This document shows positions 50,705 through 54,947 of a DNA stretch of 64,000 nucleotides, piece after piece. This DNA comes from Cyanobacterium sp. Dongsha4 (GTDB taxonomy: Bacteria > Cyanobacteriota > Cyanobacteriia > Cyanobacteriales > Cyanobacteriaceae). A program made the position numbers and the translations under genes. A model generated the notes under the pieces. That model had not been told where the DNA came from and ran no database searches. It saw only the letters and a list, made by a program, of their open reading frames with translations. Positions within the stretch are counted from its first letter, which is position 1. Each line of letters opens with the position of its first letter. The stretch is taken from the NCBI RefSeq assembly GCF_036345015.1, contig NZ_CP084098.1:1811326-1875325 (forward strand). Direction: 5' to 3'.

Positions 50705-53500
50705 ATGAATGATTTACAATGGGTGCTAATCTGTGCAGGATTAGTATTTTTAATGCAACCCGGGTTTATGTGTTTAGAGTCGGGTTTAACTAGAAGCAAA
50801 AATAATATTAATGTTGCGGTCAAAAATTTGGCTGATTTTGGCATCTCCGTAATGTTGTTTTGGATGTTTGGTTATGGGGTAATGTTTGGCTTAAGTCATG
50901 CTGGATTAATTGGTACTCAAGATTTTTTTCTCGATGTGGGGGATAATTTTAAATTAGGAGCTTTTTTTCTCTTTCAAGCAATGTTTTGCAGTACTGCTAC
51001 CACCATCGTTTCAGGGGCTGTGGCGGAAAGATTGCGCTTTAATTCTTATATTATGGTGGCGGCGTTGGTATCTGGGTTAGTTTATCCTGTGTTTGGGCAT
51101 TGGGCATGGAATGGCTTGAGTTATGATAGCAATGCTTTTACTGGTTGGTTAGGGCGTATGGGTTTTGTGGATTTTGCTGGATGCACTGTAGTTCACTGTA
51201 TCGGTGCTTGGGTTGCTTTTGCTCTACTGTTGGTAATCGGTTCAAGACAAGGACGATTTTTAGGGGGGAAGGTTAATAAAATTAATGGGTCAAATCTGCC
51301 TTTATCGGTATTGGGAGTGATGTTGTTGTGGATTGCTTGGTTTGGTTTTAATGGGGGAAGTACTCTTGCTTTTAACAATCAAGTGACAAGGATTTTGGTC
51401 AACACTTTGATGGCAGGGGTAGGGGGAATGATTAGCGGTTGTGCTTTTGGTTGGTATAAATATAAAATTCCTGAAGTTGAGTTTTTGATGAATGGAACGG
51501 TGGCAGGTTTAGTTTCTATTACGGCTTCTTGTCATGCGGTATCAACGGCGGAGGCAGTAATTATAGGTGCGATCGGATCTTTGTTGATGTTAAATATTAA
51601 GGCGAAGTTGGAACATTATCGTATAGATGATGCAGTAGATGCGGTGGCGGTGCATGGTGGCAGTGGTGTTTGGGGGGTGTTAGCTGTAGCTTTTTTTGGG
51701 CAATCGGAATTATTGGGTACGGGTTTAAGTCCTTTTCAACAATTTTGGGTGCAGTTATTGGGGGCGGTAGTTTGTTTTGTGTGGGCGTTTGGTATTAGTT
51801 TTTTGATTTTATGGAACTTGAATCGTATTTTTCCTTTACGAGTATCTTGGGAGGATGAGGAGTTAGGCTTAAATGTTTCGGAACATCGAGCGAAAACGGA
51901 AATTTATGAGTTATTAAATATAATGGATCTACAGGCGCAAACTCAGGATCTTAGTTTAAGAGTACCTGTTGAACCTTTTACAGAAGTGGGGCGCATTGCG
52001 ACTCTTTATAATCGAGTAATTTCTTCTTTGGAAAAATCTACCTTAAAGTTACGGGAGGGTAATCGGGAATTAGCAGAGGCAAAGCAGAAAGCAGAGATTG
52101 CGAACAAAACCAAGAGTATCTTTTTGGCTAATATGAGTCATGAGTTACGCACCCCCATGAATGCGATTCTGGGCTTTTCTCAAATTATGATGCGATCGCA
52201 AACTTTATCTCCTGAACACTTAGAAAATATTAGTATTATTCAGAGAAGTGGTAATTATTTGCTCAATTTAATTAATAATGTCCTTGATTTATCAAAGATT
52301 GAAGCAGGTAAAATGACTTTGAATGAAAAAAACTTCGATCTTCATGTTTTATTAGAAGAAATTGAGGATTTATTACAGCTTAAAGCAGAAGAAAAAGGTT
52401 TACAGTTAAATTTGGAAATTGATGCCTATGTCCCTCGCTTTGTTTGCACGGATGAGACAAAATTACGGCAGGTGCTAATTAATTTGGTCAATAATGGCAT
52501 TAAGTTTACAGAGGAAGGGGGAATTAATATTTTAGTTTCTCTTTCTAATCAAACTCTGGAAATGGAGAATCAAAGGTATATTAAATTTTCTGTGGAAGAT
52601 ACCGGAGCAGGAATAGCCCCAGAAGATTTATCAAAGGTATTCGAGGCTTTTACACAAACGGAAGTAGGTAGAAATGTTCAAGAGGGTACAGGTTTAGGAT
52701 TACCCATAAGTAGAAGGTTTGTGCAGTTGATGGGAGGAGAGATTGAGATTCAAAGCACTTTAGGAGAAGGCAGTATTTTTAGTTTTGAAATAGTTGTCAC
52801 TCTTGTCACAGAAAGAGATGTGCAAACTCATAATCCCCGTCAATCAAGACGAGTGATAGCCTTAAAGTCGGGGCAACCTCGTTATCGTATTTTAGTGGTG
52901 GACGATCGCCCCATTAATCGTTTACTATTAATTAAGCTCTTACAGCCCCTCGGATTTGAGTTACAAGAAGCCTGTAATGGACAAGAAGCGATCGCAATTT
53001 GGGAACAATGGAAACCCCATCTTATTTGGATGGATATGAGAATGCCTGTGATGGATGGTTATGAGGCAACCCAATATATTAAAGGAACATTAAAAGGTAA
53101 TGCCACAGCTATTATTGCTTTAACTGCCAGTGTTTTGGAAGAGGAAAAAGCCGTAATTTTATCTGCAGGGTGTGACGATTTTATCAGAAAACCCTTTCGA
53201 GAATCCGTTATCTTTGATGCTATAGGGAAGCATTTAGGTGTTGAGTATATTTACGAGGAAGAACCAGAGTCAAATGTTTTTGAACAGAAGCATCAATCTT
53301 TGACAAGACAGGATTTGCAAATAATGCCTTCTAACTGGCTCGACAAATTATATCAAGCGGCTAAGGAATTAGATGATGATTTAATATTGGAATTAATTAA
53401 GAAAATACCCCCCGAAAATAATATCCTTGCTGATAAATTAAAACATCTTGTGGATAACTTTCAACTTGCCAAAATTAGAAAATTAATTGAAGAAATATAG
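50705..53500 (+). CDS. Ammonium transporter fused to a hybrid histidine kinase (Amt-HisKA-HATPase-REC)
   Basis: A 931-residue fusion. Residues 1-400 are a full Amt transporter with the pore His residues in DFAGCTVVHCIGAW and AVAVHGGSGVWG. A linker of about 60 residues leads to HisKA with the phospho-acceptor His479 in ANMSHELRTPMNAIL, the HATPase N and G boxes (NLVNNGIKF, DTGAGI, GTGLGLPIS), and a REC domain with Asp777 in MDMRMPVMDG. It probably senses external ammonium through the transporter and signals inward. The REC-PAS-GGDEF gene begins 13 bases after it, so they form one operon. Confidence 0.92.
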   Translation: MNDLQWVLICAGLVFLMQPGFMCLESGLTRSKNNINVAVKNLADFGISVMLFWMFGYGVMFGLSHAGLIGTQDFFLDVGDNFKLGAFFLFQAMFCSTATTIVSGAVAERLRFNSYIMVAALVSGLVYPVFGHWAWNGLSYDSNAFTGWLGRMGFVDFAGCTVVHCIGAWVAFALLLVIGSRQGRFLGGKVNKINGSNLPLSVLGVMLLWIAWFGFNGGSTLAFNNQVTRILVNTLMAGVGGMISGCAFGWYKYKIPEVEFLMNGTVAGLVSITASCHAVSTAEAVIIGAIGSLLMLNIKAKLEHYRIDDAVDAVAVHGGSGVWGVLAVAFFGQSELLGTGLSPFQQFWVQLLGAVVCFVWAFGISFLILWNLNRIFPLRVSWEDEELGLNVSEHRAKTEIYELLNIMDLQAQTQDLSLRVPVEPFTEVGRIATLYNRVISSLEKSTLKLREGNRELAEAKQKAEIANKTKSIFLANMSHELRTPMNAILGFSQIMMRSQTLSPEHLENISIIQRSGNYLLNLINNVLDLSKIEAGKMTLNEKNFDLHVLLEEIEDLLQLKAEEKGLQLNLEIDAYVPRFVCTDETKLRQVLINLVNNGIKFTEEGGINILVSLSNQTLEMENQRYIKFSVEDTGAGIAPEDLSKVFEAFTQTEVGRNVQEGTGLGLPISRRFVQLMGGEIEIQSTLGEGSIFSFEIVVTLVTERDVQTHNPRQSRRVIALKSGQPRYRILVVDDRPINRLLLIKLLQPLGFELQEACNGQEAIAIWEQWKPHLIWMDMRMPVMDGYEATQYIKGTLKGNATAIIALTASVLEEEKAVILSAGCDDFIRKPFRESVIFDAIGKHLGVEYIYEEEPESNVFEQKHQSLTRQDLQIMPSNWLDKLYQAAKELDDDLILELIKKIPPENNILADKLKHLVDNFQLAKIRKLIEEI

Positions 53501-53513
53501 TAAACTACCTATT

Positions 53514-54947
53514 ATGAATCCTCTTGTTTCACTTATGAATGCTGTGGAAATATCTTCGGAAGAAAAATTGACAGAAAGTATCTTGATAGTTGATGATCAA
53601 CCTGCCAATTTAAGGGTATTATCGCAAATGTTACAGGTAAAAAACTATAAAGTAAAAAAGGCAGCAGATGGAGAAAGTGCGATTCTGGCGGCTAAATCTA
53701 GTCCCCCTGATTTAATTTTATTAGATATTTTAATGCCTGACCTCAACGGTTATGAAGTTTGTCAAAAGCTCAAAGCTGATAATCTTACTAAAGATATTCC
53801 CGTAATTTTTATTAGTGCTTTAAGTGATGTTTTTGATAAAGTTAAAGCCTTTGAAGTCGGTGGAATTGATTATATAACTAAACCATTTCAAGAAGAAGAA
53901 GTTTTAGCAAGAATAGGCAGTCAATTAACTATTCAAAAGCAAAAAAAGTTATTAGAAAAAGAACAAGAAAAACTAAAAAAAGAGCAAGAGCAATTAAAAA
54001 AAGAAATCAGACAGAGAAAAGAAGCCGAAGCCATTTTATATCAATCCCGTGCTATTATTTCTAGTATTCTTAACTCTTCTTTAGATGCGATCGCAGCTTT
54101 AGAAGCCGTAAGAGATCCAGTTTCAGGTAATATTTTAGACTTTCGTTGCTTAGTGGTTAATCCGATAACCGCCCAAATTTTTAATCGTCAACCAGAAGAT
54201 TTAACAGGAAAATTACTATTTAAAAAGTTTATTAAACAAATCAAACCAGAATTATTTGTTGAGTTTATAAAAGTAGTAGAAACAGGAAGAGCTTTAGATA
54301 AAGAAGTTGAATATAATTATAAAAAACAACATAAATGGTTTCATTGCATAGCCGTCAAATTAGGAGATGGATTTTCCGTCACTGTTAGAGATATTACCGA
54401 AAGAAAAAAACTAGAATTAAAGTTAAGTAAATTAGCGACCATAGATAGTTTAACAGGTGTTTATAATCGTCATTCCTTTGACAAAATCTTAAAACAAGAA
54501 TGGCAGAGATGCGGTAGAGGAAAACAACCCTTATCTTTGATTATTTGTGATATAGATTTTTTTAAACCCTATAACGATTTTTACGGACATCAAGCAGGAG
54601 ATAAATGTTTAATAGAAGTAGCAAAAACTATGAGTAATATTGTTAGAAGAACATCCGATTTTTTAGCTCGTTATGGTGGAGAAGAATTTGCAATTATTTT
54701 ACCCAATACACCCCAACAAGGAGCGTTTAATGTTGCCGAAAATATCCGCCAAGAAATCGAAGCCTTACAACTTCCCCATGAAAAATCCCAAATTAGTAAA
54801 TATATTACTTTAAGTTTAGGTGTCGCAACTATTATTCCCACTCAAGATGTCTCATTAGAATCTTTAATTAAAAGTGCCGATAATGCCTTATATTCTGCGA
54901 AAAAATCGGGTAAAAATCAAACTCAATTAGGAGAGTTATTATTATAA
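53514..54947 (+). CDS. REC-PAS-GGDEF diguanylate cyclase, partner of the Amt-kinase
   Basis: A 477-residue protein from the ATG at 53514; the in-frame TTG at 53487 would overlap the previous gene. REC domain: ILIVDDQPANLRVL, LILLDILMPDLNGYEV (Asp receiver). A coiled Lys/Glu-rich stretch (about 140-180) joins to a PAS domain, then GGDEF with the active-site motif RYGGEEFAIIL. It is likely phosphorylated by the upstream kinase and produces c-di-GMP. The pairing is inferred from operon context. Confidence 0.9.
   Translation: MNPLVSLMNAVEISSEEKLTESILIVDDQPANLRVLSQMLQVKNYKVKKAADGESAILAAKSSPPDLILLDILMPDLNGYEVCQKLKADNLTKDIPVIFISALSDVFDKVKAFEVGGIDYITKPFQEEEVLARIGSQLTIQKQKKLLEKEQEKLKKEQEQLKKEIRQRKEAEAILYQSRAIISSILNSSLDAIAALEAVRDPVSGNILDFRCLVVNPITAQIFNRQPEDLTGKLLFKKFIKQIKPELFVEFIKVVETGRALDKEVEYNYKKQHKWFHCIAVKLGDGFSVTVRDITERKKLELKLSKLATIDSLTGVYNRHSFDKILKQEWQRCGRGKQPLSLIICDIDFFKPYNDFYGHQAGDKCLIEVAKTMSNIVRRTSDFLARYGGEEFAIILPNTPQQGAFNVAENIRQEIEALQLPHEKSQISKYITLSLGVATIIPTQDVSLESLIKSADNALYSAKKSGKNQTQLGELLL

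Follow-up and report, generated by a model that had tools for sequence, protein, structure and literature searches.

Among the closest described systems is Sd-Amt1, the ammonium receptor of Shewanella denitrificans. Structures are available (PDB 8qj3, 8qj4 and 8qpf), and its ammonium transporter (Amt) domain is joined in a single chain, without kinase or receiver, to a GGDEF output. Ks-Amt5 of Kuenenia stuttgartiensis (PDB 6eu6) is an Amt domain fused to HisKA-HATPase; it has neither a HAMP domain nor a receiver, and its response regulator is unidentified (PMC5764959). Here, we describe a gene pair in a 64,000-nucleotide stretch of Cyanobacterium sp. Dongsha4 (NZ_CP084098.1, positions 1,811,326 to 1,875,325; hereafter the window), which combines features of both. 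The first gene (50705..53500, plus strand) encodes a protein of 931 amino acids, in which an Amt domain is followed by a HAMP-like linker, a histidine kinase, a receiver (REC) and a C-terminal helical segment; the second (53514..54947, plus strand) encodes a REC-PAS-GGDEF response-regulator diguanylate cyclase. Open reading frame calls and Pfam domains bear out the sequence-only reading of this locus, which had proposed an Amt joined in one chain to a full hybrid kinase with such a cyclase encoded next to it, but had omitted the linker and the C-terminal segment. The pair is a two-component variant of Amt-to-cyclic di-GMP (c-di-GMP) receptors such as the single-chain Sd-Amt1. We propose that it constitutes a two-gene ammonium-to-c-di-GMP two-component system that arose by sensor exchange, a reading to which we assign a probability of roughly three in four. 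The earlier claim that the pairing had not been described stands for the two-gene form only, whereas a link between Amt and c-di-GMP is known from Sd-Amt1. No description of a two-component Amt-kinase with a conserved cyclase partner was found in the literature searched, which is weak evidence, as the primary paper on Sd-Amt1 lay outside that search.

The Amt domain (residues 6-397, 50720..51895) is a full-length member of the Amt/Mep/Rh family, as judged by its scores against PF00909 (386 bits) and TIGR00836 (396 versus a cut-off of 343). Together with the linker it aligns with Sd-Amt1 over residues 6-439 (387 bits; 46% identity). The solved folds nearest to its predicted model are the receptor Sd-Amt1, in ON and OFF states, and the sensor Ks-Amt5, the TM-score against 8qj4 being 0.92. 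In Ks-Amt5, two ammonium ions are held at an intramembrane site composed of Q24, E31, N47, D50, T51, T109 and T112 (PMC5764959). Alignment places Q18, E25, N41, D44, F45, T100 and S103 at these positions, that is, five residues are identical and one is a conservative exchange of Thr to Ser, so that six of the seven site positions are conserved. The remaining one, F45 in place of T51, is likewise Phe in Sd-Amt1. The site Gln is present in all 83 and the Asp in 81 of 83 Amts bearing the linker, a set gathered by similarity to this Amt, which does not separate descent from function and includes near-identical copies from a few genomes. At the positions of these Gln and Asp residues, the two ordinary Amts encoded in the window's genome carry Asn and Val. 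The signature is also found in one unfused Amt of Methylomonas (L084).

All residues required for transport are likewise retained, namely the Phe gate (F94/F215), the W135/S219 selectivity site, the twin His H164/H317 and the conserved D156. Moreover, the pore plug of Ks-Amt5 (F27, Y30, F34) corresponds to F21, L24 and L28, leaving two of its three residues unmatched, and the Amt domain may therefore still transport. The plug is a trait specific to Ks-Amt5, and Sd-Amt1 has F, F and N at these positions. These observations favour an alternative in which the Amt domain acts as a transceptor, the kinase reading transport activity or the cytoplasmic state rather than occupancy of a fixed site. We consider this unlikely, albeit the most serious of the competing explanations: the Gln, Glu, Asn and Asp residues of the two-ion site are conserved as in Ks-Amt5, which binds ammonium without translocating it (PMC5764959), and two ordinary Amts are at hand in this genome to serve uptake.

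The segment that connects the Amt domain to the kinase (about residues 398-450, 51896..52054) has the consensus DlslRVPVEPFTEvG.IA.rYNqV, which is strongly conserved among 84 proteins. A structure model predicts two helices (399-413 and 427-450) with a connector, and hhalign detects a weak similarity to the HAMP domains of dCache kinases (probability 61, pairwise E 8e-5, 40 columns). We refer to the linker as HAMP-like only, because the Pfam HAMP model (PF00672) finds no match in the Amt-kinase protein. The hybrid kinase that follows is complete. It comprises a HisKA dimerization domain (residues 470-535, 52112..52309), a HATPase_c domain with N, G1, F and G2 boxes (582-696, 52448..52792) and a receiver (729-840, 52889..53224). 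The phospho-acceptor His479 of the H-box (52139-52141) and Asp777 of the receiver (53033-53035) lie where the sequence-only reading had placed them as phosphotransfer residues. Compared with Ks-Amt5, the protein thus differs by its linker, its receiver, the adjacent cyclase gene and the unmatched plug. The C-terminal helical segment (860-931, 53282..53497) is shared with the dCache kinases. It was considered as a histidine phosphotransfer (HPt) domain and rejected, since no His residue is invariant in the alignment of this segment and a PDB fold search with it returned no significant match.

The cyclase is made up of a REC domain (53580..53915), a PAS-like domain (54036..54422; Pfam PAS_4) and a GGDEF domain (54435..54920), and its reading frame ends at 54947. 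Counted from ATG 53514 it has 477 residues. Its start is, however, uncertain: TTG 53487, ATG 53514 and ATG 53535 are candidates, and homologues favour ATG 53535, the position at which several of them begin. The distance of 13 bases given for the two genes by the sequence-only reading consequently holds for ATG 53514 only. Catalytic residues are intact, including the GGEEF motif (54675-54689), the substrate-binding motif DIDFFKPYND, the inhibitory (I-) site RTSD (54648-54659) and the receiver Asp71 (477-residue numbering; 53724-53726). Residues 461-630 of the Sd-Amt1 chain match this cyclase, although here a kinase and a separate response regulator intervene between receptor and output. The protein also resembles PleD, a receiver-GGDEF response regulator with GGEEF motif and RxxD I-site, but PleD has two receivers where the present protein has one receiver and a PAS domain; the score against the NCBIfam PleD model NF007135 is 290.5 bits, below the cut-off of 474. 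In PleD-type cyclases, phosphorylation of the receiver changes c-di-GMP output. That the paired cyclases are phosphorylated is supported by their receivers, which keep the Asp, whereas four REC-PAS-GGDEF paralogues that have no such hybrid kinase next to them (L232, L233, L234 and L235) have degenerate receivers that have lost the phospho-acceptor Asp. One paired cyclase (G205, L100:7825-9144) has GGEKF instead of GGEEF, preceded by a short insertion, and may be inactive or may reflect a faulty assembly.

The gene pair is conserved, as the earlier reading had suggested should be checked. In the cyanobacterial family to which the window's genome belongs, all 11 genomes with an intact Amt-kinase gene (the window and L091-L100) carry the REC-PAS-GGDEF gene behind it on the same strand, at a spacing of -13 to about 300 bases; these genomes share one ancestor and are not independent of each other. 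Beyond the pair, most flanking genes differ. Two downstream genes are common within the window's genus, and a CcdA-like gene lies near the pair in six genomes. The latter was not counted as part of the system, as its sequence is housekeeping-like and it occurs on either side. Given that the genome of the window has 28 GGDEF matches, repeated adjacency of kinase and cyclase across the family amid differing neighbours is not due to chance. Absence is shared as well: the two genomes of one genus (g4; G083 and G196) have no Amt-kinase and no closely related cyclase, and both genes are broken in G147 (L197:194-2524), Amt being split by a frameshift and the region from the HATPase through the cyclase receiver being missing. 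Among the 15 family genomes searched, none had lost the kinase or the cyclase gene alone. Outside the family, a phylum-wide sample of 386 genomes yielded no further close Amt-kinase. An NtcA box (GTA-N8-TAC) upstream of the Amt-kinase gene was neither present in the window nor conserved among relatives.

Sequence relationships point to the origin of the pair. The same genome contains a second cassette (L189:4025-8325; G000:C1:2884024-2888324), in which a dCache-HAMP-HisKA-HATPase-REC-C-terminus protein is followed by a REC-PAS-GGDEF cyclase. Its dCache sensor is recognized by Pfam, and its kinase domain is 54% identical to that of the Amt-kinase. A GGDEF-EAL gene precedes this cassette. Outside the family, the nearest relative of both the kinase part and the cyclase is another such cassette (L253, family f7), whose sensor was judged to be of the dCache type from the matching layout rather than by a Pfam scan. 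Identity to L253 amounts to 63.5% for the kinase, 82% for REC, 57.5% for the C-terminus and 66% for the cyclase. Thus, these cassettes share the kinase-REC-C-terminus unit and the cyclase with the pair described here, but their sensor is an extracellular dCache-type domain instead of Amt. In trees that have this one locus as their only outgroup, L253 is joined by the family's kinase-REC-C-terminus at a support of 96/95 and by its cyclase at 100/99. The Amt domain, by contrast, falls with other Amt-kinases, at 96 in a quick tree. An earlier kinase tree, built from less data and lacking L253, had been unresolved. A single clade of the kinase parts of all Amt-kinases was rejected (approximately unbiased test, p=0.0064), as was a clade of the family's Amt-kinases with the Amt-kinase L101 (p=0.00018), although these p-values are somewhat optimistic because the first trees were already known when the clades were named. 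As the history of the Amt domain conflicts with that of the kinase-REC-C-terminus and the cyclase, the Amt-linker module most likely replaced the dCache sensor of a pre-existing kinase/cyclase cassette.

Several observations weigh against a dedicated ammonium-to-c-di-GMP route. Common descent may explain the Ks-Amt5 site signature no less than function does. No HPt protein adjoins the pair and other HPt domains are encoded elsewhere in the genome, which also has many receivers and some 28 GGDEF domains, so that cross-talk is possible. Hybrid kinases often relay phosphate via a separate HPt protein. The kinase could signal mainly to its own receiver or, through an HPt protein, to another regulator, the cyclase being driven by other kinases. 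The hybrid receiver, the distant HPt domains and the paralogous dCache kinase with its 54% identical kinase domain would all fit such an arrangement. Yet kinase and cyclase have the same nearest relative and have stayed together through rearranged neighbourhoods, and at five loci in other families (L101, L108, L110, L112 and L115) an Amt-kinase-REC again adjoins a REC-containing protein, in these cases a REC-histidine kinase, which makes this explanation improbable. That adjacency is simply an inherited neighbourhood without functional link, or that the Amt domain has ceased to act as a sensor, is compatible with the common ancestor of the 11 genomes, but we regard it as very remote, since the pair persists amid largely different neighbours, loss or decay affects both genes jointly, and the site and catalytic residues have been preserved at identities of 64-97%.

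Signalling from external ammonium via the kinase to the c-di-GMP cyclase therefore seems the best reading of these sequences. This route had been put forward in the sequence-only reading; conservation of the pair, its shared loss, the Ks-Amt5-type site and the dCache parent cassette strengthen it. By analogy with Ks-Amt5 and PleD-type cyclases we infer that ammonium is bound, that phosphate is transferred and that c-di-GMP changes, in either direction and possibly with an effect on behaviour, as follows. External ammonium would enter the Amt vestibule and fill the two-ion site within, as the conserved residues suggest. The resulting change would be relayed through the HAMP-like linker to the kinase and alter phosphorylation of His479. 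Dependence of this phosphorylation on ammonium is presumed because the Ks-Amt5 kinase responds to ammonium, which raises its phosphorylation at low concentration (PMC5764959). From His479, phosphate may pass directly to the cyclase's receiver and/or to Asp777 in the receiver of the kinase itself. Phosphorylation of the cyclase receiver would then switch c-di-GMP synthesis, which may be subject to product inhibition through the RxxD I-site.

Amt-linker units are found with further outputs. In other bacteria they are fused to GGDEF-EAL (L054 and L056), and additional fusions involve a class III cyclase (L121 and L125), a SpoIIE-type phosphatase (L116, L123 and L062) or HisKA_2 (L057), the hosts of these diverse proteins including cyanobacteria and Desulfobacterota, among others. 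In the planctomycete Planctomycetales bacterium ZRK34 (L043:9935-13303), an Amt-kinase gene is followed 19 bases on by a gene for a REC-HD-GYP protein. The latter is likely a c-di-GMP phosphodiesterase, and ammonium may lower c-di-GMP in this organism. The genome of the window itself encodes a second receptor-like Amt (L003:1492-3189; G000:C1:1917684-1919400), which has the same HAMP-like linker but no kinase. The linker is followed by another stretch of about 110 residues, which partially matches HAMP, and the ammonium-site signature is present; this protein may signal through a partner.

Taken together, the combination of Amt and HAMP-like linker appears, on balance, to be a general and transferable ammonium receptor module that has been plugged into many outputs and was here swapped onto an existing kinase/diguanylate-cyclase cassette, thereby creating an ammonium-controlled c-di-GMP pathway. 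Unlike Ks-Amt5, the pair offers an Amt-kinase and, from the adjacent gene, a candidate partner with an output that can be measured; as a natural control, the corresponding dCache cassette differs in the sensor only. In cyanobacteria, aggregation, light-dependent motility and cell differentiation involve c-di-GMP (PMC10117731). The gene pair may connect external ammonium to c-di-GMP in these organisms in a way that can be tested.

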